A stretch of 38,434 nucleotides of DNA from an uncultured Erysipelotrichaceae bacterium (GTDB lineage Bacteria; Bacillota_I; Bacilli_A; Erysipelotrichales; Erysipelotrichaceae): contig CADABS010000026.1 in assembly GCA_902786245.1 (NCBI GenBank), positions 1 to 38,434 on the forward strand. Reading direction: 5' to 3'. The position numbers were made by a program, and so were the translations under genes. Shown piece by piece: positions 1,534 through 30,353 of the stretch (the first letter of the stretch is position 1; every line of letters begins with the position of its first letter). The notes beneath the pieces were generated by a model, which saw only the letters and a program-made list of their open reading frames with translations, made no database searches and was not told where the DNA came from.

Positions 1534-3791
1534 TTCATCTCCTCCGGCAATGCAAAGCGGTACGCAGGTACTTCTTCATTGAGCAGATAGCGGACAAAGT
1601 AATCCAGCTTTCTGCGGATAAAATACGGATTCGCCGGGACGTTGTGATTGGTTCTCGGCAGGATCAGGAAGTCAAAGTCCTTATCTTCTTTGATCAGCGC
1701 ATCAACCAGGCGGATCGACTGGGACATGGCGACATTGTCATCCATTGCCCCGTGCACGATGTACAGTTTTCCCTTGAGATTCTTTGCCAGGGAGGTATTG
1801 TCGCCCTGGATATAGATATCCCTGTTGTAAAGACCGTAATAGGTTTCCGTCCACTGGTTGTTGTACATTCTCTGGTCATGGTTTCCGGCCGAGGATACAC
1901 CGACCTTATAGACATCCGGATATTCCAGCATCGCTCTGCTGGTTGCACATCCGCCGCCGGAGTTTCCCCACATGCCGGCTCTGTCCAGATCCAGGAACGG
2001 ATACATCTGCTTCAGCTGCGGAAGCACATAGACATGATCTTTCAGTCCGGCACAGCCATGAATATTTTCATAGCTGATCTCATGCAGTTTCTTGCCTCTG
2101 CCCGGTGTTCCAAGACCGTCAAGAATAATTCCGGCAAAGCCGAGCTGTGCCAGTTCTTCCAGACCGCCCATGATTTCCCTGCCTTCAATCGATGCCTCGT
2201 ACGCAAATGCCTTGGGCACATTGTATGTCTGCATTCCCCCGTAGATATAATCGATAAACGGATAGGTCTTGTCCGGATCGAAATCCGCCGGACGGATCAG
2301 AATACCGTACAGATCCGTCTTTCCATCCGATGCCTTGACCGTAAATCTTTCCGGAACGATATAGCCTCTGTCCATCAGACCGCTGATATCTGCTTTCACC
2401 AGTTCTCTGACGAAGGTACCGTCCGTCTTCCGCAGTACTGTCACCGGCGGCAGATCGACCCGGCTGTATGTATCGATGATCATATCATTGACGATTTCAC
2501 ATCTGTGCATTGCGTCTTCCGGTGTCAGGACTTCAAAGCCGCTGCCGTCATAATGAACGCGGCAGACTGCCTGATAGCACGGATCGGACATCGAAGAAAG
2601 AATGCTCGCATAGAAATAGATATATGCATTCTCATCATCCGCTCTGATCAGTTCCCCGACTGCACAGGTATCCGGAGTAACCGGCCCCACATATGTGCCA
2701 TTGCCGTCATAGCGGAACAGACGGGCATAGTCATCCCGCTCGCTCTGCCAGAGAAGAATCTGCCTGTCTGCACTGAGATAGTTGCTTGCCCAGTAATGTC
2801 CGAAGCCGTCCAGCTGCCCGTGCGTACGGATATTCAGGGATGTCTGTGCATCTTCCCGGTACAGTTCCTTCACTTCTCCATCGGTATTGACCAGGATGAA
2901 CGAAGCGGATTTATTGCCTCTGCGCACCAGCGTCGTATAGAAGGCAGAACTGTCATCCATCCATTTCGAGGAAGCCATATAGCCGCCCAGGACCGGTCCG
3001 CCGGCAGGCTGGGGTTCCATATCCAGTTTTACGACCGTATAATCTTCCGCATTTCCCAGGTAATAATGCGCAAGCGGAACATCTTCATCCTCCGGGAATG
3101 CGCATTTATAGGTATGGAGACGAGGCCGGATGCTTTCCAGATGTTCATCATCATAGGACTGCAGCACATACAGTTCCTTTACCTTTCTCTGGTCCAGTTT
3201 CACCGTCAGGAAATGCACGGAATCCGGTGCCCAGAGCACATCCGGTGCCATCGCTTCGCCTTTGACCTTTGCGGTAATGAATCCGCTGTATTCGGCATAT
3301 TCGCCATAGGCAAAGTCTTTTTCACCATCCCAGGTCAGACGGGTTTCTTTCTGTGTCTTTCTGTCTTTCAGCCAGAGATCATGATCTCTGACAAAAATCT
3401 CTTTCGTCTCATCCGGAGAAACAGATACCGCTTTGTTCTCAAAGCCTCTGCTCTGCAGCGTATTCTCACAGGGATCATAGACAAAGCTTTCGCCTTCTCT
3501 GTCAAAGAATATCTTTCCGTCTATGACGGTGCAGGAGGCAAACGGCAGATGACCGCATTCCAGCAGATCGCAGAGTTTTTCATGATCAAACAGATCTTCT
3601 TCGCTTCCGTCTTCCGTATTCACCTTCCGGAAAACAGCGTATACTTCGTCTTCCTCTCTCTGTTCCAGAGCATAGCCGAAGTGTTTTTCATCCACTTCAA
3701 ATACCTGCGGTGCACCGTTCAGCACTGCCCCTGCCACGTTCCACGGCAGGAGTTTTTCTGCGGCTCTGTAGCGTTCTTCCATTGTTTTCAT
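1530..3791 (-). CDS. S9 family prolyl oligopeptidase / DPP-IV-type peptidase
   Basis: The 753-aa protein has an N-terminal beta-propeller-like region (about 1-490, DPPIV_N type) and a C-terminal alpha/beta-hydrolase domain. The catalytic triad is visible: Ser611 in GNSGGG, Asp684/685 in HGAMDDNV and His716 in TNHNVP. Family members cleave short peptides, often after proline, so a role in intracellular peptide turnover is likely. No signal peptide or membrane segment is seen, suggesting a cytoplasmic enzyme. Its ATG overlaps the SGNH hydrolase stop by 4 nt, and its own stop overlaps the next gene by 4 nt. Exact specificity (X-Pro dipeptidyl peptidase versus acylaminoacyl peptidase) is not determined. 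Confidence 0.9.
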   Translation of the reverse strand: MKTMEERYRAAEKLLPWNVAGAVLNGAPQVFEVDEKHFGYALEQREEDEVYAVFRKVNTEDGSEEDLFDHEKLCDLLECGHLPFASCTVIDGKIFFDREGESFVYDPCENTLQSRGFENKAVSVSPDETKEIFVRDHDLWLKDRKTQKETRLTWDGEKDFAYGEYAEYSGFITAKVKGEAMAPDVLWAPDSVHFLTVKLDQRKVKELYVLQSYDDEHLESIRPRLHTYKCAFPEDEDVPLAHYYLGNAEDYTVVKLDMEPQPAGGPVLGGYMASSKWMDDSSAFYTTLVRRGNKSASFILVNTDGEVKELYREDAQTSLNIRTHGQLDGFGHYWASNYLSADRQILLWQSERDDYARLFRYDGNGTYVGPVTPDTCAVGELIRADDENAYIYFYASILSSMSDPCYQAVCRVHYDGSGFEVLTPEDAMHRCEIVNDMIIDTYSRVDLPPVTVLRKTDGTFVRELVKADISGLMDRGYIVPERFTVKASDGKTDLYGILIRPADFDPDKTYPFIDYIYGGMQTYNVPKAFAYEASIEGREIMGGLEELAQLGFAGIILDGLGTPGRGKKLHEISYENIHGCAGLKDHVYVLPQLKQMYPFLDLDRAGMWGNSGGGCATSRAMLEYPDVYKVGVSSAGNHDQRMYNNQWTETYYGLYNRDIYIQGDNTSLAKNLKGKLYIVHGAMDDNVAMSQSIRLVDALIKEDKDFDFLILPRTNHNVPANPYFIRRKLDYFVRYLLNEEVPAYRFALPEEMK

Positions 3792-4435
3792 ATCATTCTA
3801 CCTTCCTGTATTTCTTCCAGAAATGCCTGTATGCACTGTGCAATCAGCCGGTGGCCTGTTTCATCCGGATGCAGGCCGTCAATCGTATATCCGACTATAT
3901 CGGGCAGTCGGTCATAGAGGTCCAGCACCGGGATTTCATGTGCTCTGCATACCCTCCGTACTGCCATGATATAAGCAGTCAGCGGCGCTATGACCGGTCT
4001 GCCGAAATCGTTGTATTCCGCATCTTCATCGCTTCTGCGCAGCGGCGTCATGAAGATGATCTCTGCCTCGGGATATGCCTGTTTCAGTTCATTGCACAGA
4101 CTGTGCACCGCCCCGTAAAACGTATCATCTGTCCGGTCATCCATGGTTCCGAGCGGCGCATCGCCATGGCCGAAATCATTCGTTCCGCCGAAGATCATGA
4201 CGATATCCGCATCCGGATCCATCTTTCTGACACGGGTACGGAAATAAGCATCATAGGCAGCCCCGACCGAAACCTTCTGCTTTGCGATGCGGGTGCCGTT
4301 GATGCCATAGCCCTTTGTCTCAGCACCGGTGTTTCTGCCCAGAACCCGCCAATAGACATCTTTATGATTCGCAAGACCGTATCCGTACGTGATACTGTCC
4401 CCGAGAAACACGATTTTCTTTCCGTTCAGTTCCAT
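3788..4435 (-). CDS. SGNH/GDSL hydrolase
   Basis: The protein is 215 aa from the chosen start. GDSI near the N-terminus carries the nucleophile Ser14. The block III GGTND motif (Asn86) and the C-terminal DGLHP motif (Asp186, His189) complete the SGNH catalytic set. These enzymes are esterases or lipases that deacylate small esters or carbohydrates. A longer reading from ATG 4474 is possible. The start at 4435 is preferred because GGGAG sits 6 nt upstream and an extended -10 box overlaps the longer N-terminus. It is the first gene of the SGNH - S9 - serine hydrolase operon and is divergent from glmS. There is no signal peptide, so it is likely cytoplasmic; the substrate is unknown. Confidence 0.85.
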   Translation of the reverse strand: MELNGKKIVFLGDSITYGYGLANHKDVYWRVLGRNTGAETKGYGINGTRIAKQKVSVGAAYDAYFRTRVRKMDPDADIVMIFGGTNDFGHGDAPLGTMDDRTDDTFYGAVHSLCNELKQAYPEAEIIFMTPLRRSDEDAEYNDFGRPVIAPLTAYIMAVRRVCRAHEIPVLDLYDRLPDIVGYTIDGLHPDETGHRLIAQCIQAFLEEIQEGRMI

Positions 4436-4451
4436 TAATCTCTCCCGATTC

Positions 4452-4460
4452 ATCATAGCA
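4452..4460 (-). promoter_or_regulatory. Extended -10 promoter of the hydrolase operon
   Basis: On the minus strand TGC-TATGAT ends 16 nt before the ATG at 4435. The predicted start site falls just before the GGGAGAG ribosome binding site, giving a leader of roughly 10 nt. No convincing -35 is seen. Confidence 0.5.
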
Positions 4461-4511
4461 CAGGTATGTTTCATCTGTGTTTCAGAAACCTTTTCAGACG
4501 GTTTTCCAGGA

Positions 4512-4520
4512 TGCTATAAT
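4512..4520 (+). promoter_or_regulatory. Extended -10 promoter of glmS
   Basis: TGC-TATAAT is an ideal extended -10, 30 nt before the glmS ATG. The leader of ~24 nt carries AGGAG. There is no room for a glmS ribozyme. Confidence 0.65.
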
Positions 4521-4550
4521 TGTCCCATCAGAAACAGGAGATAAAAATAT

Positions 4551-6389
4551 ATGTGCGGAATTGTCGGATACAACGGATCTGAACAGGCAGCACCCATCCT
4601 GCTCGAAGGACTTTCCAGACTGGAATACCGGGGCTATGACTCGGCCGGACTGGCAGTTCGGAACGCATCCACCCCTATTGAAATCGTCAAGGCAAAAGGC
4701 AGACTGAGAGTTCTGGCGGAAAAGACCAATGACGGCGAAGCCCTGCACGGTACCTGCGGCATCGGCCATACCCGCTGGGCCACCCATGGCGAGCCTTCTG
4801 AAAACAACGCCCATCCCCATGCGTCCGATGACCGTACGGTTGTCGGCGTACATAACGGCATCATCGAAAACTACCAGGAACTGAAAGAAAAGCTTCTGCG
4901 CCATGACTATGTATTCTACTCTGATACAGACACGGAAGTCGCTTTGAAGCTGATCCATTACTATATGGGAAAATACGCGGGCGGACCGGTTGACTCCATT
5001 GCCCGGGCAATGACCCGTATCCGCGGCAGCTATGCCCTGGCTGTAATGTTTGCGGAATACCCTGATGAAATCTTTGTCGCAAGAAAAGACTCGCCGATGG
5101 TCATCGGCGTAACAGACGGTGCCTGCTATATCGCCTCGGATGTACCGGCTCTGCTGAAATATACCAGAAGCGTCTACTACATCGGCAACCAGCAGATCGC
5201 AAGACTCGGCAAAGGAACGGTTTCCTTCTTTGACATTGACCGGGAACCGGTATCCGTTGAACAGACCGAAGTCAAATGGGATGCGGAAGCTGCGGAAAAA
5301 GGCGGATTCGAGCACTTCATGATCAAAGAGATCCATGAACAGCCCAAAGCCGTCAGAGACACCCTGCATTCCCTGATCAAAGAAGACCATATCGATCTTT
5401 CCGGAACCGGACTGACCGATGAAGACCTGCGGAAATACGAAAGAATCCATATCGTCGCCTGCGGCAGTGCCTATCATGTCGGACTGGCCGGTCAGTACAT
5501 TATCGAAGATCTCGCCAGAATGCCTGTCCGGGTGGAACTCGCCTCTGAATTCCGCTACCGCAATCCCCTTCTGACTGACAGAGACCTTGTCATCGTGATC
5601 TCCCAGTCCGGTGAAACAGCGGATTCCCTGGCAGCGCTGCGTCTGGCAAAAGAAAAAGGCATCGAAACACTCGGCATCATCAATGTCATCGGTTCCTCCA
5701 TTGCCAGAGAAGCAGATCATGTGCTCTATACCCTGGCCGGACCGGAAATTGCCGTTGCGACAACCAAAGCATATTCTGCCCAGCTGGCTGCTGTTTATGT
5801 TCTTGCAGTGCAGGCTGCCCTGATCAGAGGATGCATCGATGAGGAAAAATACAAAGAACTGCTGAATGAAATGGAACAGCTGCCGGCAAAGATGGAACGC
5901 GTTCTCGAAGACAAAGAACGCATCCAGTGGTTTGCCGCAAAATACTCCAATGCCAGAGACATGTTCTTCATCGGCAGAGGCATCGACTATGCCATTTCCA
6001 TGGAAGGCTCCCTGAAGATGAAAGAAATCTCCTATGTCCACTCCGAAGCCTATGCGGCCGGTGAACTGAAGCACGGAACGATTTCCCTTGTCGAAAACGG
6101 AACACTGGTCGTCGGCGTATGCACGCAGAACCATCTGTTTGAAAAGACCCGTTCCAATATGGTGGAAGTCAAATCCCGGGGTGCCTACCTGATGGGACTG
6201 ACCAATTACGGAAACTATTCCATTGAGGATACCGCTGACTTTACCGTATATATTCCCCGTACAGATGCCCATTTCACGACTTCCCTGGCAGTCATTCCCC
6301 TGCAGCTGCTGGGCTATTACCTCAGCGTTGCCAGAGGTCTGAACGTCGACAAGCCGAGAAACCTTGCCAAATCCGTAACCGTAGAATAA
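4551..6389 (+). CDS. glmS: Glutamine-fructose-6-phosphate aminotransferase (isomerizing)
   Basis: The 612-aa protein has the usual length for GlmS (EC 2.6.1.16), which makes glucosamine-6-phosphate from fructose-6-phosphate and glutamine for peptidoglycan and other amino-sugar polymers. It starts MCGIVGYNG, so Cys2 becomes the N-terminal nucleophile of the Ntn glutaminase domain (about 1-230). Two SIS isomerase domains follow: one with GCGSAYH and SQSGETADS at about 300-370, the other in the last 170 residues, ending in the conserved LAKSVTVE tail. The start is fixed by AGGAG 10-14 nt upstream. It is transcribed alone from an extended -10 promoter and ends in a strong terminator. No glmS ribozyme precedes it. 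Confidence 0.97.
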   Translation: MCGIVGYNGSEQAAPILLEGLSRLEYRGYDSAGLAVRNASTPIEIVKAKGRLRVLAEKTNDGEALHGTCGIGHTRWATHGEPSENNAHPHASDDRTVVGVHNGIIENYQELKEKLLRHDYVFYSDTDTEVALKLIHYYMGKYAGGPVDSIARAMTRIRGSYALAVMFAEYPDEIFVARKDSPMVIGVTDGACYIASDVPALLKYTRSVYYIGNQQIARLGKGTVSFFDIDREPVSVEQTEVKWDAEAAEKGGFEHFMIKEIHEQPKAVRDTLHSLIKEDHIDLSGTGLTDEDLRKYERIHIVACGSAYHVGLAGQYIIEDLARMPVRVELASEFRYRNPLLTDRDLVIVISQSGETADSLAALRLAKEKGIETLGIINVIGSSIAREADHVLYTLAGPEIAVATTKAYSAQLAAVYVLAVQAALIRGCIDEEKYKELLNEMEQLPAKMERVLEDKERIQWFAAKYSNARDMFFIGRGIDYAISMEGSLKMKEISYVHSEAYAAGELKHGTISLVENGTLVVGVCTQNHLFEKTRSNMVEVKSRGAYLMGLTNYGNYSIEDTADFTVYIPRTDAHFTTSLAVIPLQLLGYYLSVARGLNVDKPRNLAKSVTVE

Positions 6390-9363: not shown

Positions 9364-10752
9364 TTACTGGGCCGGGGCTCCTTCTGTATAGGTTACCCAT
9401 CCCTCTTCGGTATCGATCCATTCGTTTTCATCCAGACGGTACCATGTATCAGCTCCGTCCGTACGGACTGCATATACATAGTAATCCGCACCGGCAACCG
9501 CTTCGCCGACGGTTTCGGATGCTTCATTATCCGCTGTATGGATCGGAATGCCTGCTACATTGATATGTGCAGTTCCGATGACTGCGTTGGGATCGAAGGC
9601 TGCCGGAGCCGGCTCCGGTGCAGGTTCCGGTGCAGGTGCAGGTGTCTCCTGGGAACCTTCATCTGTCTTTTCACCGCTGTCAGGTGTCTCCGCATCCGTC
9701 TTATCATCGGTATTGTTATCCACAACTGCAGAAGGCTCTGTCTTGTTGTTATCTGCCTGGTTTGCGTTGCGCATGAACAGCCACCAGTAGACACCGCCGC
9801 AGGCAGCTGCCATCAGCAGAAGCGCCAGCAGAATCTTCAGGAATGCACCGCCATGACCGGACTCATCGTCCTCATCTTCATATTCATCATCATCGACGAT
9901 CGTTACCGGGGCCGGTTCCTTTACAGGTGCAGGCGCAGGTGTTTCTTCCGGCTGTTCAAGACTGTTTCTTTCATAGACAGATGTATCCTGCAGAAGCTTC
10001 GGTTCCTGTTTTTGCAGTTCTTCCAGATTGATATCATCGGTAAACAGAATTCTGTCTTCCGTATCCTCATCGCTCTGGGCTGCCAGTTCCATCGTATCGC
10101 TTTCATCCAGATCGAATGAAGGCAGAACTGTTTCTTCAACCGGTGCAGATACCGGTTCCGGTGCCGGATTGACCCGGTTTGTCAATGCAGTAAACGTATG
10201 CAGATCGATATCGCCGCGGCGGATGGTCTGCTTTGCCATTGTCAGGAGCGTCTTTGCCTGGTCCTCGCTGATATCCAGATACGAACCGATTTCTGCCGGT
10301 GTCATATGTTCATAGAAATGCAGCGCTGCCGCAAGTCTTTCCGCCGGCTTCAGTTCATCCAGAACATGCAGAATGCGTACCCGGCATTCCTCTTCTGTAT
10401 AGGCAATGATATTCTCCGGACTGCCGTATTCATCCGCAGATGTGTAAGGCAGATCTTCAATGCGGAAAACATCCAGCGGCAGAACTCTGCTCACTGCTTC
10501 ATCACGGACAATTTTGGAAATCCACTGTTCGAAAGACTCCGCTTCTTCGGATTCTTTCAGTCTTCCCAAAGCATTGCGCAGTGCGCTTTCTTCGGAAGAA
10601 CGGGCTGTGTCACGGTCACCGACAAAGAGTCTGGTGACAAAATACATATCTGAAGTAATACCGCGCATCAGTTTCTTCATGGCATCCCGGTCGCCGCCGG
10701 CTGCCAGATGAACGATTTCACGGATTCCGTTTTCTGTCATTGTTTCATTCAT
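9364..10752 (-). CDS. Sigma-70-like protein with membrane anchor and extracytoplasmic SH3-like domain
   Basis: This 462-aa protein has three parts. Residues 1-180 resemble an ECF sigma factor: a region-2-like helical stretch (about 10-90) and a region-4-like helix-turn-helix (about 124-179, LKPAERLAAALHFYEHMTPA then GSYLDISEDQAKTLL). Residues 181-300 are an acidic, Pro-rich cytoplasmic linker. One hydrophobic helix (about 304-327) is followed by a second Pro/Ala/Glu-rich linker and a C-terminal SH3-like domain (about 391-457) that would lie outside. By analogy it may couple a cell-wall signal to transcription, or region 4 may only serve for protein contact. Whether region 2 still binds core polymerase is unclear. 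The TATAAT at about 30 nt upstream has no clear -35. Transcribed singly. Confidence 0.72.
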   Translation of the reverse strand: MNETMTENGIREIVHLAAGGDRDAMKKLMRGITSDMYFVTRLFVGDRDTARSSEESALRNALGRLKESEEAESFEQWISKIVRDEAVSRVLPLDVFRIEDLPYTSADEYGSPENIIAYTEEECRVRILHVLDELKPAERLAAALHFYEHMTPAEIGSYLDISEDQAKTLLTMAKQTIRRGDIDLHTFTALTNRVNPAPEPVSAPVEETVLPSFDLDESDTMELAAQSDEDTEDRILFTDDINLEELQKQEPKLLQDTSVYERNSLEQPEETPAPAPVKEPAPVTIVDDDEYEDEDDESGHGGAFLKILLALLLMAAACGGVYWWLFMRNANQADNNKTEPSAVVDNNTDDKTDAETPDSGEKTDEGSQETPAPAPEPAPEPAPAAFDPNAVIGTAHINVAGIPIHTADNEASETVGEAVAGADYYVYAVRTDGADTWYRLDENEWIDTEEGWVTYTEGAPAQ

Positions 10753-10793: not shown

Positions 10794-12155
10794 TTAATTT
10801 TTAAGACTTTGAATCGGAGAGGGAATTCTGCCGCCCCTGCCGATCATGACAGCCGGACTGGCTTTTTCCACCGGCATGACCGGTCCTTCCCCCAGAAGTC
10901 CGCCGAAAACAAGATGATCTCCCGCTTCCATACCGATGGCAGGAATCAGACGGCAGGCCGTTGTCTTAGAATTGATCATGCCGATGGCGGCTTCATCCGC
11001 AATGATGCCGGACAGTGTCTCCGCTGTCGTATCTCCGGGCACGATGATCATATCGAGTCCGACTGAGCATACCGCTGTCATCGCCTCCAGTTTCTCGATT
11101 TTCAGCGTTCCCGCTTCCGCTGCCGCAATCATTCCGGCATCTTCCGATACCGGTATAAACGCACCGGACAGTCCGCCGACCGAAGACGAAGCCATGATGC
11201 CGCCTTTCTTCACCGCATCATTCAGCATCGCCAGGGCTGCTGTCGTTCCCGGACCGTCGCACTGTTCCAGACCGATTTCCTCAAGGATCTGGGCAACCGA
11301 ATCGCCGACTGCCGGTGTCGGTGCCAGAGACAGATCGACAATACCGAACGGGAATCCCAGCCTGCGGCTTGCCTCTCTGCCGACCAGCTGACCCATCCGG
11401 GTGATTTTGAACGCAGTCTTCTTGATGATCTCCGCAATCTCATCCATCGAAGCGTCCGGACCTGCCTTGCGGACCGCATTGCGTACGACACCGGGACCGG
11501 ATACACCGACATTGATTACAACATCCGGCTCCGATATACCGTGAAAAGCACCCGCCATAAACGGATTGTCCTCAACCGCATTGCAGAAAACGACCAGCTT
11601 GGCCGCACCGAAGCAGTGATCATCCTTTGTCTTTTCCGCACAGGACCGGATCACCTGTCCCATCAGCCGCACCGCATCCATATTGATGCCCGCTTTCGTT
11701 GAACCGATATTCACCGAAGAACAGACGATATCCGTACATGCCAGGGCGTCCGGAATCGATTCGATCAAAGCTCTGTCACCGGGTGTCATGCCCTTCTGCA
11801 CCAGCGCGGAAAACCCGCCGATAAAATTGACGCCTGCATCTTTTGCGGCCTTATCCAGTGTCTGTGCATACCGGACCGGATCGCCGCCGCTGACGCTGAC
11901 CAGCAGAGAAACCGGTGTCACCGAGATCCTCTGGTTGATGATGGGAATACCGTATTCCCGGGAAATATCCTTTGCGGCAGGTACCAGATTCCTGGCACAG
12001 CGCATAATCTTGGCATAGATTTTCTCACAGGATTTCTCGATGTCGCTGTCTGCACAGTCCATCAGAGAAATACCCATGGTAATCGTCCGGATATCCAGGC
12101 TTTCCTCTTCGATCATCCGGATCGTTTCCAGAATATTATCAGATGTACGTGTCAT
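10794..12155 (-). CDS. PFL family protein, UPF0210 (DUF711)
   Basis: The 453-aa protein belongs to the DUF711/UPF0210 family, structurally related to the pyruvate formate-lyase/ribonucleotide reductase barrel but of unknown biochemical role. Recognisable stretches include TMGISLMDC near the N-terminus, [18 protein letters not shown] in the middle and [16 protein letters not shown] at the C-terminus. The usual glycyl-radical motif is not apparent. Members almost always sit beside a small ACT-domain protein, as here: the ACT gene ends 8 bp upstream on the same strand. A TAGGAGAG site precedes the ATG. The conserved pairing suggests the ACT protein senses an amino acid or similar ligand for this protein; that is inference. 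Confidence 0.9.
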
Positions 12156-12163
12156 GATCTCTC

Positions 12164-12433
12164 CTAAATCGAATGCATGGCATTGAAGATATCTTCATGC
12201 ATGACATGGATCACCAGTGCCTGCTCTTCTCCCAGTGCCTCGAATTCATCTGCGATGGCATGCATATTCTCCAGATCCTCAGGAAGATCGACGATCATGA
12301 TCATTGTGAAAAGATCCTGCAGAACTTTCTGGGTTACGTCTACGATGTTGATATTCCGCTGTGCGCACGCTGTTGCGACGCATGCAAGAATACCGGGTCT
12401 GTCTTTGCCTACTACGGATATAACTGCTCTCAT
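12164..12433 (-). CDS. ACT domain-containing protein (UPF0237)
   Basis: This 89-aa single ACT domain begins [20 protein letters not shown], the classic ligand-binding ACT start with the GKDRPGI loop. It belongs to the UPF0237 group, relatives of the glycine-cleavage regulator GcvR fold. It is expected to bind an amino acid or similar small ligand as a dimer. The start ATG overlaps the stop of the lipoprotein gene (ATGA), with GGAGGAG upstream. It is immediately followed by its usual partner UPF0210, giving a lipoprotein - ACT - PFL order. Confidence 0.92.
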
Positions 12434-13623
12434 GCATTCTCCTCCTTTATAAACTCATCATAGGACAGTCCGCAGTAGTACAGTTCCATCCGCAGAAAAT
12501 CCCTGACATGGTTCATCATTTCAATCGTTGTGTCTGCGCAGTCGCTGGATGCATTTTCTGTTTCAAACATAAATGTGCACTTGCCCATGGTCGCCACATC
12601 GCCCTTCCAGTTATAGACATAATTGATCGTGTAATTGGAATACGTAAACGTACCATTGGCAAAGTCAAAAGCATATGCCTCATGATCATTGTAGATCAGT
12701 TCATATACATCTTCCGACTTCTGTTCATATCCGAGCCGGTTCACCAGTCTCTTGCGCAGCGTAGCGGCAGCTGTTGCCTCAGCACTGTCATCCGGCACAT
12801 CGGCTGTCTCAATGGAACCGGTATCGATATCCGCAAAAGCAGGATAGGACGACTGTTCCTTCTTCTGTTCATCGCTGACCGCAACCGTCACGGAATCAAA
12901 GCCCAGATAGCTCAGGGAAGAGTGATATGCAACATTGATCCTGTGTCCGCTGTAGGAAGCCTCTGTTTCAAAGTCCGCTTCCTCCCGGATCAGCCTGCCC
13001 TCCGCATCAAAGGAATCGATGATCCTGCCGGAAAGAACATGCAGATCGCTCAGCTGATCCATACCGTAGAAATCATATCTGCTTAAAAACAGATCCTTCC
13101 GGCTGCTCTCATTCAATACAGCGGTATAGACCGTCTGCCCTTCTTCTTCACTCACATACAGCCCTTCCAGACTGTCTTCCGGAACCGCATAGGGTTCCAG
13201 AGGCACCAGCAGGGTTTTCTTCAGATCGGCAAACGGCATATCCTCATAATAGGAAACAATGCCGTTATAGGTATTGTACAGACGGCCGTCATAATAATAT
13301 CCGTCCATGCTGGAAGCCATCCCGTTGCCGTTGATGTGCTCTTTCAGTCTGCCGGACACATTTCCGTCTGCATCCTGTGCATCCAGGGTTCCGTCCATTT
13401 CATAGATTGCACTGGATTCATCCTCATAGGAAAACGTATAGCGGCTGGATACCGCAGCTGTCCATGCGTCCGCTTTGATTCTGTCATTGATGGCAGCGGC
13501 ATAGCTCTCATAATCACCTGTTTCCGCCGCCGGCTCCGGTTTCACCGGTGTATTTTCCTCCGTCCCTGTGCATCCTGCCAGCAGAATACACAGACCGAGC
13601 ATCCATTTCATCTTCTTCTGCAT
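12430..13623 (-). CDS. Predicted lipoprotein, function unknown
   Basis: The 397-aa protein starts with a short Lys-rich n-region and hydrophobic core ending in LAGC, a clear lipobox with Cys18 as the lipidated residue. The rest is acidic, tyrosine-rich and without transmembrane helices, so it is likely anchored on the outer face of the membrane. I do not recognise a named domain. The sequence contains beta-rich segments reminiscent of LolA/LppX-like folds, but this is only an impression. The ATG follows an extended -10 box by 9 nt with no ribosome binding site, so the mRNA is predicted to be nearly leaderless. Its stop overlaps the ACT gene start. Confidence 0.82.
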   Translation of the reverse strand: MQKKMKWMLGLCILLAGCTGTEENTPVKPEPAAETGDYESYAAAINDRIKADAWTAAVSSRYTFSYEDESSAIYEMDGTLDAQDADGNVSGRLKEHINGNGMASSMDGYYYDGRLYNTYNGIVSYYEDMPFADLKKTLLVPLEPYAVPEDSLEGLYVSEEEGQTVYTAVLNESSRKDLFLSRYDFYGMDQLSDLHVLSGRIIDSFDAEGRLIREEADFETEASYSGHRINVAYHSSLSYLGFDSVTVAVSDEQKKEQSSYPAFADIDTGSIETADVPDDSAEATAAATLRKRLVNRLGYEQKSEDVYELIYNDHEAYAFDFANGTFTYSNYTINYVYNWKGDVATMGKCTFMFETENASSDCADTTIEMMNHVRDFLRMELYYCGLSYDEFIKEENA

Positions 13624-13644: not shown

Positions 13645-14733
13645 TCAGGGCACCAATATGACCGGAACTATGGCCTCTTCCCGGCATCCGCCGGCATGGT
13701 TTCCTTTCATTTCCGCATTCCGGCCGTAATCCAGCTGTACATCCGAAACTGCCACTGCCAGATAATCGCCGATAAAATCTTCAAATCTTGCATGCGGCTT
13801 TCCTTTTCCGAACAGACCGCTTTCCACCGCTTCCTGATGCGTCATCAGCACAAAACTGTCTCCCAGCAGTTTATGAAAGTTTTCCTCAAAGGATTCCCTG
13901 TATCCTTCCCGCACCCAGATTGAACAGGCTCTGGCCTCCAGCGAAGGACAATGCACAAATGTATGCGCAACAGACCGGTTCTTCAGCATATCGAAATGAC
14001 GGACATCGATCTGGCTGTGATCCGCCAGAACAAGCAGACCGGTATCCTCCGGAAGGCGGTCTGACAGTTTTTCGATTTCCGACTGTATCTCTTCCAGCAG
14101 AACCCCTGTGCCGCTGTCAGAAGGCCCGAAGTCATGCATGTAATTATCCAGTTCATCCCAGTATCCATAGACAAACCGGCAGTTTTCATCATGTACCGCC
14201 GCATTGATCTTTTCGCACATACTGCGGAAATCTTTACAGGGATTGACCCTGGACCAGGAAGGCCAGAACGTCTCTGCCTGTATTCCCTTTGCGTTCAGTT
14301 CATCATAGATCATATGCACCGGCAGCACCTCATAGGTATAGTTCCCGTAGGTTCTGGAAGTATACTGTCCTTTGTTGTAGAACATGATGATCTGATCATG
14401 CTTTTCCGCAAAATACTGATTCCAGCCCAGCCATCCGGTCTCACACGGATACTTTCCGGTCAGAAACGCTGTTGTCGCAGCTGCTGTTGTCGGAGGAAAA
14501 ACCGTACTGATTTCTTCTTTGATATTTGCCGTCAGGAAAGAATCCTGCGGCAGATGTTTCCGCATGACGCTGATTCCCATCCCGTCCACCAGGACCGCCG
14601 CAACACATCGGAACTGATTCTCATTCAGCCACTGATCAATGACAGGATCGCCTTTTCCGCTTCCATCCAGACCGTAATATCTGCGCAGTGATGTGCCCGC
14701 ATCAACGATACCGCCGTATTCTTCAGCCTTCAT
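13645..14733 (-). CDS. Alkaline phosphatase superfamily phosphodiesterase / nucleotide pyrophosphatase
   Basis: The 362-aa protein belongs to the type I phosphodiesterase/nucleotide pyrophosphatase family (PF01663). Metal and nucleophile features are visible: VLVDGMG with Asp50, then FPPTTAAATTAFLTGKYP containing the likely Thr nucleophile (about 82-83), and a late VLADHSQIDVRH metal-binding motif. It probably hydrolyses a phosphodiester or pyrophosphate bond of a nucleotide or nucleotide sugar. No signal peptide is evident. Start 14733 is preferred over 14748 because GGAGGG lies 7 nt upstream of it, while it would sit against ATG 14739 and be inside the longer reading. It is upstream of the lipoprotein gene with a separate promoter. 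Confidence 0.87.
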   Translation of the reverse strand: MKAEEYGGIVDAGTSLRRYYGLDGSGKGDPVIDQWLNENQFRCVAAVLVDGMGISVMRKHLPQDSFLTANIKEEISTVFPPTTAAATTAFLTGKYPCETGWLGWNQYFAEKHDQIIMFYNKGQYTSRTYGNYTYEVLPVHMIYDELNAKGIQAETFWPSWSRVNPCKDFRSMCEKINAAVHDENCRFVYGYWDELDNYMHDFGPSDSGTGVLLEEIQSEIEKLSDRLPEDTGLLVLADHSQIDVRHFDMLKNRSVAHTFVHCPSLEARACSIWVREGYRESFEENFHKLLGDSFVLMTHQEAVESGLFGKGKPHARFEDFIGDYLAVAVSDVQLDYGRNAEMKGNHAGGCREEAIVPVILVP

Positions 14734-14756
14734 ACGCATACCCTCCACTGATACTC

Positions 14757-24838: not shown

Positions 24839-26152
24839 TTACATGTCTTTTTTCAGGCCGTCATACAGTGCCCGTACCGTCCGCTGATAATCCGTTTCCG
24901 GCACCGCAACAATGACGATCAGTTCACCGAAGCTCGCGTCAACCATACGGATGGAAATATCCGCATCGGCGATCACCTGCAGAATACGCGCTGCCGCACC
25001 GGTATTGGAAATACCCTCACCGACGACCGCAATCAGGGCAATGCCGTCTTCAATAAAGATTCTGTCCGGATGCAGTTCATCATCGATTTCCTTCAGGATC
25101 TCATCCCGGCAGTGATCCAGCTGCGGGGTGGAAACCAGTACCGACATCGTTTCCATGGACGTCGGCATATGTTCAAATGATACGCCGTGCTCCGCAATGA
25201 TCCGCAGCACCGAAGCACCGAAGCCGATTTCCACGTTCATCATGACCTTTTCGATCTGCAGATTGGAGAATCCCGTCTTTCCGGCAATACCGGAAATACC
25301 GCGCTTCTTGACATGGTCCGGCATGCCCGAAACGATCCAGGTACCATGGGCAGACGGATCAGATGAATTGCAGATATGGATCGGAATACCTGCCGTACGG
25401 ACCGGCAGAACCGTATCTTCATGCATGACAGAAGCACCCATATAGGAAAGTTCACGCAGTTCCCGGTAGCTGATCCATTCCATCGTCTTGGCTTCCGGAA
25501 TGACTCTGGGATCCGCTGTCAGAAGACCGTTGACATCTGTCCAGTTCTCATAGACATCCGCTTTGACTGCTCTTGCGGCAATCGCACCCGTCACATCCGA
25601 GCCGCCCCGGCTGAACGTACAGATCTCATCTCTGCCGATGCCGCCGTAGAAGCCCGGAATGACCGCATGTTCCGCTCTGCGCATTGCCCGGCGCAGCACG
25701 GGATATGTCGCGGCTTCATCGAAGCGCCGCCTGGAATCAAAGAAAATGGTATTTGCCGCATCGATCATCGGCCAGCCGAGATATGCCGAAATCACCTTGG
25801 CATTGAGATATTCCCCTCTGCTTGCCAGATAATCCCGGGAAGGCTTTTCTTCGATCCTGGCAATGATCATTTCAAACTCCCGGTCCAGATCCAGTTCAAT
25901 ATCCAGATCTGCAGCGATCTGTTCAAACCGTTCCTGTACCAACCGCAGCGCCGGCATATAATCCCTGCCGTTTTCCGCCGCCTCATATACCTGATACAGA
26001 AGATCCGTGACTTTGATATCTTCACCGAACCGTTTGCCCGGTGCCGATACGACCATATACTTCCGTTCGGGATTGTCTCTGAGTATGTTTACGGCATTGC
26101 GGATCGCATCCGCATCTGCCAGGGAGGTGCCGCCGAATTTTGCAACGATCAT
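24839..26152 (-). CDS. lysC: Aspartate kinase
   Basis: The 437-aa protein is aspartokinase (EC 2.7.2.4), the first step from aspartate to lysine, threonine and methionine. The kinase domain starts MIVAKFGGTSLADA, with the KFGGTS nucleotide-binding motif at residues 5-10. The C-terminal third (about 295-437) holds two ACT-type domains, including GEGISNTGAAARILQVIADA, which normally bind lysine or threonine for feedback inhibition. The start at 26152 is supported by GAGGAAACAATT directly upstream and by alignment of KFGGTS; ATG 26182 would add ten unusual residues. It is divergent from the lysA operon and not preceded by a riboswitch of its own. Confidence 0.95.
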   Translation of the reverse strand: MIVAKFGGTSLADADAIRNAVNILRDNPERKYMVVSAPGKRFGEDIKVTDLLYQVYEAAENGRDYMPALRLVQERFEQIAADLDIELDLDREFEMIIARIEEKPSRDYLASRGEYLNAKVISAYLGWPMIDAANTIFFDSRRRFDEAATYPVLRRAMRRAEHAVIPGFYGGIGRDEICTFSRGGSDVTGAIAARAVKADVYENWTDVNGLLTADPRVIPEAKTMEWISYRELRELSYMGASVMHEDTVLPVRTAGIPIHICNSSDPSAHGTWIVSGMPDHVKKRGISGIAGKTGFSNLQIEKVMMNVEIGFGASVLRIIAEHGVSFEHMPTSMETMSVLVSTPQLDHCRDEILKEIDDELHPDRIFIEDGIALIAVVGEGISNTGAAARILQVIADADISIRMVDASFGELIVIVAVPETDYQRTVRALYDGLKKDM

Positions 26153-26198
26153 AATTGTTTCCTCGGTTTCTGTAAGAGGCATTCAGTGCCTGCGACTG

Positions 26199-26204
26199 AT
26201 TATA
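26199..26204 (-). promoter_or_regulatory. -10 box of lysC
   Basis: TATAAT on the minus strand, giving a leader of about 40 nt before ATG 26152. The -35 region is weak. The leader is too short for a riboswitch. Confidence 0.5.
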
Positions 26205-26248
26205 ACGTAAAATCCGGAATATGCACCTGCTAAATGCATGTATTTTCA

Positions 26249-26277
26249 TTGAAATGCAGGAAATCAGATGGTATCAT
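26249..26277 (+). promoter_or_regulatory. Promoter of the lysA-dapA-dapB-ddh operon
   Basis: TTGAAA (26249-26254) and TATCAT (26272-26277) with a 17-bp spacer. The predicted start site is about 26284, just before the riboswitch P1 helix. Confidence 0.75.
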
Positions 26278-26286
26278 ACTCAACAT

Positions 26287-26441
26287 AGATAGAGGTGCGG
26301 ATGCGACGAAGTCAGACAGAGCCGGCAGGCGATCGATGTCTGGTTTCAGCAATTCCGCCGAACTGGGAAACAGGGCGCTGGTTCCCGGTGGGCTGACGGA
26401 GAATATCCTTCAGACTGTCTACTGATGTAGGAGTGCTATCT
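26287..26441 (+). promoter_or_regulatory. Lysine riboswitch (L box) aptamer
   Basis: The segment opens AGATAGAGGTGCGG and closes GGAGTGCTATCT, so AGATAG (26287-26292) pairs with CTATCT (26436-26441) as helix P1. In between are the conserved AGAGGTGCG junction, a GCCGAACTGGG block and a CTGTCTACTGATG stretch, as in the Bacillus lysC leader. The motif belongs to the lysine riboswitch class. It sits 64 nt upstream of lysA and is followed by an intrinsic terminator, so lysine binding should shut off lysA-dapA-dapB-ddh. Recognised by eye from sequence blocks, not by covariance search. Confidence 0.92.
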
Positions 26442-26456
26442 GTGGGTGATTTGTAT

Positions 26457-26485
26457 ATGCCGGCAGATAACATGCCGGCATTTTT
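26457..26485 (+). terminator. Riboswitch-controlled terminator
   Basis: A perfect 9-bp stem ATGCCGGCA/TGCCGGCAT (26457-26465 with 26473-26481), 7-nt loop, then TTTTT. The 3' P1 strand TATCTG (26437-26442) is exactly complementary to CAGATA (26464-26469) at the terminator loop, giving a simple antiterminator that excludes both P1 and the terminator. Confidence 0.88.
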
Positions 26486-26505
26486 CGTCACAGGAGGAAA
26501 CAGCG

Positions 26506-27756
26506 ATGTTGAAAATCGGCGGCGTATCCCTCGGGGATCTTCAGAAACAGTACGGAACACCCCTGTATGTATACGATGAAACAAAACTGCGCAGCAGACT
26601 GCAGGAATTCACGGAAAACTTCCGCAGCGATTTATTTGATACATGCGTCATCTATGCATCCAAGGCATTCAACTGCAAAGCGATGATCCGGCTCGTATCG
26701 GAATACGGATGCGGCCTGGATGTCGTCTCCGGCGGAGAGATGTATACCGCCCTGAAAGCAGGCTTCAATCCGGCAAAGATCTATTTTCACGGAAATAACA
26801 AAACACCGGAAGAAATATCCATGGCCATTGCCAACGGCATCGGCACGATCATTCTCGACAATGAAATGGAAGCGGATGAACTCATCCGCCAGATGGAAAA
26901 AACGGATTCTTCCGTCAATGTCTATCTGCGCATCAATCCCGGCATCGAAGCACATACGCATCAGTATATCGTCACTGCCCATGTCGACAGTAAATTCGGT
27001 TTCTCCCTGCTCGATGAAAAAACGATCGCGGATACTGTGCAGAGACTCACCGCCACAGAAAAAATCAATGTCTGCGGCCTGCATGCCCATATCGGATCGC
27101 AGATCTTCGATAAACAGGCATATGCCGAACTGATCCGTAAAATGTTCCGCACCGCCGTGCATTTCAACAATGATTACGGCATGCATATCACCGACATCAA
27201 CCTGGGCGGCGGCTTTGCGGCATATTACACCGATGAAGACCATCCGGTTCCCGTACAGGAAGTATGTGAAACGATCCTGCAGACATGCGCGGAAGAAAAC
27301 ACAGAAAACATGATCCGCAGAGTACTGATCGAGCCGGGACGCAGTATCGTCGCGGAAGCAGGCTATACGCTGTATACCGTCGGCTATCTCAAGAAGACGC
27401 CCAACCGCCATTACGCATTTGTCGATGGAGGCATGTCCGATAATATCCGCCCTGCCCTGTATCAGGCAAAATACAGCGCTGTCATCGCCGGAAAAGAAGA
27501 TCTTGCCCCGAAAGAAACCTATACCATTGCCGGCAAATGCTGCGAATCCGGAGACATTCTGATCGATTCCATCGATCTGCCGGAAATCGAAACCGGCGAT
27601 ATTCTGGCAATGAAAACAACCGGTGCCTACGGCTATTCCATGGCATCCCGGTACAACAAGCTCCCGTTCGCAGGTGTTGTATTCGCAAAAGACGGCACCA
27701 GCCGGGAAGTCATCGCAAGAGAAACATACGATCACATGATCGCACTGGAAAAATAG
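26506..27756 (+). CDS. lysA: Diaminopimelate decarboxylase
   Basis: The 416-aa protein converts meso-diaminopimelate to L-lysine (EC 4.1.1.20). It is a fold III PLP enzyme: the Schiff-base lysine is in IYASKAFNCKA near residue 50, followed by GLDVVSGGE, HAHIGSQI, the EPGRSIVAEAG phosphate-binding motif and the CCESGD active-site cysteine loop contributed across the dimer. The start is fixed by AGGAGG 9 nt upstream; an upstream in-frame reading would run through the terminator. It is the first gene of the riboswitch-controlled operon, unusual in that the last pathway step comes first. dapA follows after 17 bp. Confidence 0.96.
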   Translation: MLKIGGVSLGDLQKQYGTPLYVYDETKLRSRLQEFTENFRSDLFDTCVIYASKAFNCKAMIRLVSEYGCGLDVVSGGEMYTALKAGFNPAKIYFHGNNKTPEEISMAIANGIGTIILDNEMEADELIRQMEKTDSSVNVYLRINPGIEAHTHQYIVTAHVDSKFGFSLLDEKTIADTVQRLTATEKINVCGLHAHIGSQIFDKQAYAELIRKMFRTAVHFNNDYGMHITDINLGGGFAAYYTDEDHPVPVQEVCETILQTCAEENTENMIRRVLIEPGRSIVAEAGYTLYTVGYLKKTPNRHYAFVDGGMSDNIRPALYQAKYSAVIAGKEDLAPKETYTIAGKCCESGDILIDSIDLPEIETGDILAMKTTGAYGYSMASRYNKLPFAGVVFAKDGTSREVIARETYDHMIALEK

Positions 27757-27773
27757 CAGGAGGAAGGAAAGCC

Positions 27774-28649
27774 ATGCTGAAAGGATCTATCGTTGCACTC
27801 ATCACCCCCTTCCATGAAGACGGAAGTGTCAATTTCGAAAAACTCGGAGAGCTCCTGGAATGGCACATCGCCAATTCCACCGACGGCATTCTGGTGCTCG
27901 GCACGACCGGTGAAAGCACGACAATGAGCCATGAAGAAGATGACGCCGTTGTCGAATTCACCCTGAAGACCGTCAATCACCGTGTACCTGTCATTGCCGG
28001 ATCCGGTTCCAATGACACAAAAACCATGCTCGAAAAATCAAAGAAATACGCTGCCATGGGTGTCGATGCCCTGCTGGTCATCACCCCGTATTACAACAAG
28101 GCAAACGAAGAAGGCATGATCCGCCATTTCACGACCGTCGCGGACAATGTGGACAAGCCCCTCATTCTCTATAACGTACCAGGCAGAACCGGATGCTCCA
28201 TCAGCGTCAGCGCAGTTGAAAAGCTCTCGAAGCATCCCAATATCATCGGTATCAAAGAAGCTTCCGGCAATATCAGCTATGCCGTCAGCGTATCCCGCTA
28301 TGTCAATGAGAACTTTGCCATGTACTCCGGCAATGACGACATGATCGTTCCGATCCTTGCCCTGGGCGGCTCCGGCGTTATCTCCGTCTTTGCCAATACA
28401 AACCCGAAAGAAGCACATGACCTTGTTCAGAACTGGTTTGACGGAAACCAGAAAGAAGCCCTGGCAATCCAGCAGAAATATCTGGATTACATTCATGCGC
28501 TGTTCTGCGAAGTCAACCCGATCCCGGTCAAAGAAGCACTGAACCAGATGGGAAAAGAGGTCGGCGGATACAGACTGCCTCTGTATGAAATGGCAGAAAA
28601 CAACAAAAAACATCTGATCGAAGAAATGAAGAAAGCAGGCATTCTATGA
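27774..28649 (+). CDS. dapA: 4-hydroxy-tetrahydrodipicolinate synthase
   Basis: The 291-aa TIM-barrel protein condenses pyruvate with aspartate semialdehyde (EC 4.3.3.7). ALITPF opens the barrel, GTTGES follows, LYNVPGRT carries the catalytic Tyr, and GIKEASGN carries the pyruvate Schiff-base lysine. Length is standard for the family. The ATG is preceded by AGGAGGAAGG. A longer in-frame reading from 27537 lies wholly inside lysA and is rejected. Its stop overlaps the dapB start (ATGA), so these two are translationally coupled. The aspartate-semialdehyde dehydrogenase needed to supply its substrate is not in the window. Confidence 0.96.
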   Translation: MLKGSIVALITPFHEDGSVNFEKLGELLEWHIANSTDGILVLGTTGESTTMSHEEDDAVVEFTLKTVNHRVPVIAGSGSNDTKTMLEKSKKYAAMGVDALLVITPYYNKANEEGMIRHFTTVADNVDKPLILYNVPGRTGCSISVSAVEKLSKHPNIIGIKEASGNISYAVSVSRYVNENFAMYSGNDDMIVPILALGGSGVISVFANTNPKEAHDLVQNWFDGNQKEALAIQQKYLDYIHALFCEVNPIPVKEALNQMGKEVGGYRLPLYEMAENNKKHLIEEMKKAGIL

Positions 28650-29350
28650 AAATCATCATCGGTGGAAAAGGAAAAATGGGCGTTCTGCTGGCAAAGTCCT
28701 TTGAAGAAGCCGGCCATCAGGTCTTAGGTATGTTCGATGCATACAATCTCGATGAACTGACAGACGGTGCCGACATGATCGTCGATTTCTCCCACCGCGA
28801 CAACCTCGGATGGATCATCGATTATGTAAACAGAAACAACTGTGCACTCGTCTACGGTACGACCGGACTCAGCGATGAACAGAAGGAACAGCTCAATCTT
28901 CTGTCTCAGAATCATCCGGTATTCTTCAGTGCCAATTTCTCCTATGGCGTTGCGGTACTGCAGGAACTGATCAGAACCGCCGCTCCCTTACTGAAAGATA
29001 CCTTTGATATCGAAGTGACTGAAACACATCACAACCAGAAACAGGACGCACCCAGCGGCACTGCCAAAGCGATCATCGATATTCTCAACCCCGACGGAGA
29101 ATTCAAAGAAGTATTCGGCAGAAGCGGCATGACCGGTGCCAGACAGAAGGAAATCGGCATCCATTCGCTCCGGGGCGGCACAGAAGCAGGTGAGCATACG
29201 GTTCACTTCTTCGGAAACAGCGAGCATATTTCCATTACGCATCATGCGGACAACAGACAGATCTTTGTCAATGGCGCTGTGCGGGCAGCGGAATATCTTT
29301 CGTCAAAACCTGCCGGCATGTATACCATGCAGGATCTTCTGTTCAGATAG
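28646..29350 (+). CDS. dapB: 4-hydroxy-tetrahydrodipicolinate reductase
   Basis: The 234-aa protein reduces the DapA product to tetrahydrodipicolinate (EC 1.17.1.8). The N-terminal GGKGKMG is the NAD(P)-binding loop. The substrate-binding motif ETHHNQKQDAPSGTAKA contains the conserved HH and the DAPSGTA stretch. It is shorter than the ~270-aa enzymes of enterobacteria, as in many anaerobic Firmicutes, with no motif missing. Its start overlaps dapA by 4 nt. It is followed 16 bp later by ddh. Confidence 0.95.
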   Translation: MKIIIGGKGKMGVLLAKSFEEAGHQVLGMFDAYNLDELTDGADMIVDFSHRDNLGWIIDYVNRNNCALVYGTTGLSDEQKEQLNLLSQNHPVFFSANFSYGVAVLQELIRTAAPLLKDTFDIEVTETHHNQKQDAPSGTAKAIIDILNPDGEFKEVFGRSGMTGARQKEIGIHSLRGGTEAGEHTVHFFGNSEHISITHHADNRQIFVNGAVRAAEYLSSKPAGMYTMQDLLFR

Positions 29351-29366
29351 AAAAGAGGGATAGAAC

Positions 29367-30353
29367 ATGAAAACAAGAATCGGCATCCTGGGCTACGGCA
29401 ACCTCGGCCGCGGAATTGAATTCGCAGTACGGGAAACATCCGACATGGAACTCACCGCGGTATTTACCAGACGCGATCCTTCCACCGTAACGATTCAGAC
29501 AGAAAACGTTCCCGTTCTGCCGGTCAGTGAACTCCTGAACTGGACAGACAGGATCGATGTCCTGATGCTGTGCGGCGGCAGCGCTACGGACCTGCCTGTA
29601 CAGACTCCGGAATACGCAAAGTATTTCAATGTCATCGACAGCTTTGATACACATGCCAATATTCCCCAGCACTTCGCGGCAGTCGACGCTAGCGCAAAGG
29701 AAAACAATAAGACAGCCATGATTTCCGTCGGCTGGGATCCGGGACTGTTCTCCCTGATGAGAGCCTATACATCCGCCATCCTGCCCAACGGCAACGACTA
29801 TACATTCTGGGGCAAAGGTGTATCCCAGGGGCATTCCGACGCAATCAGAAGAATTGAAGGCGTTGCCAATGCAAAGCAGTACACTGTACCGGTCGACAGC
29901 GCTCTGACCGCCGTCAGAAACGGAGAGAATCCCGAACTCACCACAAGACAGAAACACACCCGTGAATGCTTCGTCGTTCTCAAGGAAGGCGCAGATCCGG
30001 CAAAAGTCGAAAAAGAAATCATCGAGATGCCCAATTACTTCGCGGATTATGACACAACCGTCAACTTCATTTCCGCAGAGGAATTTGCCGCAAATCACAG
30101 CGGCCTGAACCACGGCGGCTTCGTATTCCGCTCCGGTTCCACCGGTGCAGACCATGAACACAACCATGTCATTGAATTCTCGCTGAAGCTCGACTCCAAC
30201 CCTGAATTCACCACCAGTGTCATGATTGCCTATGCAAGAGCCGTAAAGCGTCTTGCGGACAGAGGCGATTTCGGCTGTAAGACAGTCTTCGATATTCCGC
30301 CTGTGCTTCTGAGCGAACTGACACCGGAAGAAATGCGCAGCCACCTGCTGTAA
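29367..30353 (+). CDS. ddh: meso-Diaminopimelate D-dehydrogenase
   Basis: The 328-aa protein makes meso-diaminopimelate from tetrahydrodipicolinate in one step with ammonia and NADPH (EC 1.4.1.16). The N-terminal GILGYGNLGRGIE is the Rossmann loop. SVGWDPGLFSLMR, GVSQGHSDAIRRIEGV and NHGGFVFRSG are signature regions of this family. Its presence in the operon means the cell uses the dehydrogenase branch, with no succinylase or acetylase dap genes nearby. GAGGGAT lies 6 nt before the ATG. It is the last gene of the operon and is followed by a strong terminator. Confidence 0.96.
   Translation: MKTRIGILGYGNLGRGIEFAVRETSDMELTAVFTRRDPSTVTIQTENVPVLPVSELLNWTDRIDVLMLCGGSATDLPVQTPEYAKYFNVIDSFDTHANIPQHFAAVDASAKENNKTAMISVGWDPGLFSLMRAYTSAILPNGNDYTFWGKGVSQGHSDAIRRIEGVANAKQYTVPVDSALTAVRNGENPELTTRQKHTRECFVVLKEGADPAKVEKEIIEMPNYFADYDTTVNFISAEEFAANHSGLNHGGFVFRSGSTGADHEHNHVIEFSLKLDSNPEFTTSVMIAYARAVKRLADRGDFGCKTVFDIPPVLLSELTPEEMRSHLL

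Follow-up and report, generated by a model that had tools for sequence, protein, structure and literature searches.

Membrane-Anchored Sigma Factors and the Locus

Several ECF sigma factors anchored in the membrane have been described before, among them ECF52 SCO4117, ECF48, ECF53, and IutY (PMC8999054, PMC5826349). For SCO4117 of Streptomyces, release by proteolysis has been proposed; in ECF52 proteins, which are reported only in Actinobacteria, a zinc finger separates the head from the membrane (PMC5826349). In the case of IutY (ECF243) of Pseudomonas putida, release by Prc and RseP has been shown (PMC8999054). The sigma-like domain of PhyR is a sigma mimic and takes the sigma factor's place on the anti-sigma protein NepR (PMC8999054).

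In the 38,434-nucleotide stretch of Erysipelotrichaceae DNA analyzed here (the window), a gene on the minus strand (9364–10752) encodes a 462-residue protein that joins a sigma-like head, a linker, a membrane helix, and an SH3 domain. A preliminary description made from the letters alone had picked out this gene, leaving its strand unstated, and had read the product as a fused sensor and transcription factor. The open reading frame is real, and the open reading frame, the profile, the fold search, and the full-length model together show that the anatomy was rightly described; the interpretation stands for the architecture but not for action as a transcription factor. The proposed one-component cell-wall sensor is not new as a design, its logic being shared by ECF52, ECF48, ECF53, and IutY (PMC8999054, PMC5826349).

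Judged from its sequence, the window protein shares the published membrane-anchored ECF layout but neither the zinc finger nor the contact residues. Like ECF52, it carries an ECF head, a membrane helix, a proline-rich outer stretch, and an outer wall- or sugar-binding domain on one chain; unlike ECF52, it has an SH3 domain instead, and its contact residues are worn. The one-chain order of ECF head, zinc finger, and membrane helix found in ECF52, ECF48, and ECF53 is not its layout. As in IutY, a membrane part is fused to its sigma head, but the iron-starvation surface signaling and the fused anti-sigma part of IutY are not seen in it. PhyR is a response regulator, whereas the window protein lacks a receiver domain; its PhyR-type Pfam match is below threshold (14.4 bits, cut-off 27), and the NMR complex of PhyR with NepR came up at a weak rank in the fold search. 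The exact design of a sigma head with an SH3 domain was not found in the literature searched, the main ECF classification lying outside that scope.

A Sigma Fold on an Acidic Tether

The head consists of a sigma2-like part (residues 7–92; 10477–10734, minus strand) and a sigma4-like part (residues 120–180; 10213–10395, minus strand). Region 4 alone passes curated cut-offs, Pfam PF08281 being matched by residues 125–176 with 27.8 bits. Neither Sigma70_r2 nor other Pfam models of region 2 matched the window protein, TIGR02937 stayed below its cut-off (34.9 bits vs. 42.9), and the ECF family models gave sub-cut-off matches over residues 9–179. With a profile of 20 orthologues, matches to AlgU, SigW, and RpoE (1e-14 to 5e-10) extended over the entire module. 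We modeled residues 1–200 with AlphaFold and, as the preliminary description had suggested, compared the structure with sigma regions 2 and 4. The best of five models reached a pLDDT of 81 (the other four 55–66) and a pTM of 0.76, and both domains were matched in solved ECF factors, with the highest Z scores for E. coli sigmaE (11.5) and SigW (11.2). The structure models were built from 8–9 sequences; the full-length model reproduces the same head. Predicted fold, solved-structure matches, and orthologue profile thus bear out the sigma2/sigma4 module and place an ECF-type fold in residues 1–196.

The remaining parts also agree with the preliminary description. In the full-length model, the linker (residues 197–302; 9847–10164, minus strand) is disordered, with pLDDT under 50 for residues 201–302, and residues 186–302 carry a net charge of −28, confirming its acidic nature. 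Residues 303–332 (9757–9846, minus strand) are modeled as one helix, in line with a single membrane passage. The outer domain (residues 391–457; 9382–9582, minus strand) is a bacterial SH3 domain of the SH3b beta-barrel type: residues 393–457 are modeled as all-beta with pLDDT of about 85–91, Foldseek gave a weak match to the SH3b domain of the lysin PlySb (9kz1, E 0.13), and the homologous domains of relatives match SH3_3 just under the cut-off. No zinc finger or fused anti-sigma domain was found in the window protein, either with Pfam or in the model, where residues 201–302 are disordered. The head is probably inside and the SH3 domain outside; the 5–7 lysines or arginines just before the helix and 1–3 after it in close orthologues are consistent with this orientation, although the window copy is without the cluster.

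Clade-Wide Change at the Contact Positions

We compared 22 members of the clade containing the window protein with 27 other ECF sequences of the family (12 paralogues from tandem arrays and 15 others); most of the 27 are membrane-fused and a few are soluble. We picked both sets among search hits, and they do not form a balanced sample. Positions D403, I405, Q406, and E407 follow sigma70 numbering mapped through the alignment, and we take them, from general knowledge of sigma factors, to be contact positions. The aspartate equivalent to D403 is present in none of the 22 clade members but in 24 of the 27 comparison sequences (11/12 array paralogues, 13/15 others), and a hydrophobic residue at the I405 position in 4/22 and 24/27, respectively. 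An acid at the E407 position is found in 0/22 vs. 18/27 (3/12 and 15/15); its loss alone is not decisive because the array paralogues mostly have asparagine there. The −35 helix of region 4.2 is similarly altered, with its threonine kept in 1/22 vs. 25/27 and its arginine in 0/22 vs. 24/27 (12/12 and 12/15). The window copy has a worn clamp-binding motif, SSEES, at residues 52–56, with S52, E54, E55, and S56 at the four positions and no region 2.2 D..QE motif, and it has Q165, A166, and L169 at the T, V, and R positions in place of the region 4.2 TV.SR motif.

The Pfam models follow the same division: region 2 was matched, weakly, in 3 of 20 clade proteins vs. 23 of 25 in the comparison set, while region 4 was found in all of both (20 and 25). 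The polymerase-binding surface of region 2 had been named as the feature on which the transcription-factor reading would stand or fall; the fold is intact, but key surface positions have changed clade-wide. With clamp contacts changed and the −35 helix arginine absent throughout the clade, action as a transcription factor is not supported, and the head, having lost its residues for gripping polymerase and reading the −35 element, may be a repurposed sigma factor and not a working one. Against repurposing would count that 14/22 clade members retain the Q406 equivalent (the window copy has glutamate), that W77 is present in 22/22, and that the core of region 4.1 is well conserved; moreover, motif loss is not a binding measurement, and the analysis found no partner for the head.

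Selection on the Head and Its Descent

The head has a dN/dS of about 0.09–0.2 in seven orthologue pairs, indicating strong purifying selection. The values are lower than those of the linker in every pair where the latter could be computed and are similar to or below those of the SH3 domain in most pairs. Seven residues (R41, W77, Y103, D107, E108, R139, and K174) are invariant in 20 heads. The head is apparently still used, with selection acting on a role apart from the usual contacts. In the phylogenetic tree, the clade arises once, its branch being long (0.71, support 99/96), and next to it stand the array paralogues, which keep more of the motif; the wear therefore looks derived.

Orthologues and Gene Neighborhood

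In about 20 other species, from a set of 70 genomes of the genus, the parts follow one another as in the window protein, and the architecture is thus not a chance product. The orthologues come mostly from MAGs, and those that align over the full length show 31–39% identity to the window protein. The cultured Erysipelotrichaceae bacterium NK3D112 has an orthologue too (L099). Across 392 genomes sampled from the phylum, no match spanning both the head and the SH3 end was found outside the genus. Conservation of the domain order, on which the preliminary description had also staked its reading, holds in the orthologues and breaks down in more distant relatives: L051 keeps the sigma2-like part, helix, and SH3 domain but is missing sigma4; L048 lies behind DUF711 as in other loci but ends after the helix; and L083 and L088 encode sigma-helix proteins, also without SH3. 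In L050, L055, and L056, which belong to the same genus, a zinc ribbon replaces the head on a similar body of linker, helix, and SH3. The parts of these membrane proteins are, as far as sequences tell, exchangeable. L049 was considered as a worn sigma head and dropped, profile comparison giving no support. The L083 (5548–6357) and L088 (5372–6178) genes, encoding a head with a terminal membrane helix, adjoin a conserved gene for an 833-residue protein, and polysaccharide-type genes also lie near the former.

The sigma-like gene is the last of a conserved housekeeping cluster, often located just behind rpoA and rplQ, with the order (phosphodiesterase)–lipoprotein–ACT–DUF711–sigma-like gene. In the window, all members are on the minus strand: the DUF711 gene (10794–12155; Pfam PF05167, 7.7e-194, and synteny) is next upstream after a 41-bp gap, followed by the ACT-domain gene (12164–12433), a lipoprotein-like gene without a Pfam family (12430–13623), and a type I phosphodiesterase-like gene (13645–14748), the last present in some clusters only. 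Most orthologues close this cluster, and DUF711 is directly upstream in 15 other loci. In two species (L072, L073), the lipoprotein gene is kept and DUF711 does not adjoin; a few copies (L071, L046) are located elsewhere. The lipoprotein-like gene is itself conserved in this cluster across the genus at 31–46% identity. Farther along the window, 24839–30353 holds, judged by eye, an apparent and ordinary lysine/diaminopimelate set (aspartokinase, lysA, dapA, dapB, and a dehydrogenase).

The absence of a separate anti-sigma factor, as first described, holds for adjoining genes: none was found at the locus, and one may lie elsewhere in the genome. Sigma region 2 is present in 11 further proteins of the genome, encoded in short frames of 157–223 residues except for two that are longer and strongest-scoring. 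Several soluble ECF genes adjoin a gene for an anti-sigma-type membrane protein, one with zf-HC2; from these pairs it follows that the classical two-gene design coexists with the one-chain protein.

A Repurposed Head or a Working Sigma Factor

We favor a reading in which the membrane protein faces the wall and carries a sigma-derived head that serves for docking or as a decoy, and give it an even chance of being right; a functional one-component sigma factor ranks below it. The head would descend from a membrane-fused ECF sigma factor that was then repurposed, and it would form the cytoplasmic part of a single-pass membrane protein whose outer SH3 domain would hold or sense wall material. The long acidic tether would let the head reach cytoplasmic partners. 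Motif loss suggests that the head no longer acts as a promoter-selecting polymerase subunit and has lost its transcription activity; instead, the sigma fold and its new set of conserved residues would bind a putative partner, be it an anti-sigma protein, some component of RNA polymerase, or another molecule.

A working membrane-anchored ECF factor, in which the SH3 domain reads wall stress, proteases cut linker and helix, and the freed head directs polymerase, is possible but rather unlikely. The intact sigma2/sigma4 fold, the order conserved in orthologues, the lack of an adjoining anti-sigma gene, and the precedents of ECF52 and IutY agree with it, as does the existence of membrane-fused relatives with more canonical motifs, such as L011 and L058; however, clamp and −35 contacts are altered clade-wide, and the disordered linker holds no fused anti-sigma or zinc-finger domain. 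The two peptidase M50 proteins encoded in the genome would suit such cleavage, but this machinery is generic and proves nothing. That the protein is a membrane-bound mimic titrating the anti-sigma factor of a soluble ECF system, as PhyR does with NepR, is improbable. The kept fold with its worn polymerase and DNA contacts, the soluble ECF genes beside anti-sigma-type neighbors, and the PhyR precedent with its weakly ranked fold match would fit; yet no anti-sigma gene lies nearby, there is no response-regulator part, and such titration would be a special case of the repurposed head that the data do not single out. We reject as highly improbable the idea of a head decaying as a relic on a protein in which the SH3 part alone matters: the missing sigma4 in L051 and the zinc-ribbon heads on the same body would accord with it, but it is largely refuted by a head dN/dS mostly as low as that of SH3 or lower, as well as by the seven invariant positions.

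If the head is a repurposed fold, a sigma factor has been turned into a docking module under strong selection; if it is a working sigma factor, the protein would be a compact switch leading from wall to promoter in Firmicutes, with no anti-sigma gene. We tentatively suggest, while holding it doubtful, that a bacterial lineage turned membrane-fused sigma factors into a wall-facing family whose sigma-shaped heads have ceased to start transcription and bind polymerase or anti-sigma proteins at the membrane, linking wall to transcription by mimicry. The relatives within one family form a series from more canonical through worn to sigma4-lost, and either way automatic "sigma factor" labels on such proteins need care.

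Other Sigma–Membrane Fusions

A tandem array in L058 (5133–17594; G148:C60) contains four genes for proteins in which a head of Sigma70 regions 2 and 4 is joined to a membrane helix. Their outer parts are large and differ between copies, with VWA, TSP3 repeats, lipase-like, WG repeats, and SH3; a fifth, shorter copy lies at 3439–5115. In L060 (3589–7227), a 1,213-residue protein combines a full DUF3160 domain with a membrane helix and a head of sigma regions 2/4, and a zinc-ribbon protein is encoded between this gene and a second of its kind. Genomes G050, G087, G112, G133, and G254 (genus g50) and G129 (g60) have at least 13 sigma-like matches each; because most of these lie in open frames of about 330–600 residues, the g50 and g60 genomes appear to hold large expansions of ECF–membrane fusions.
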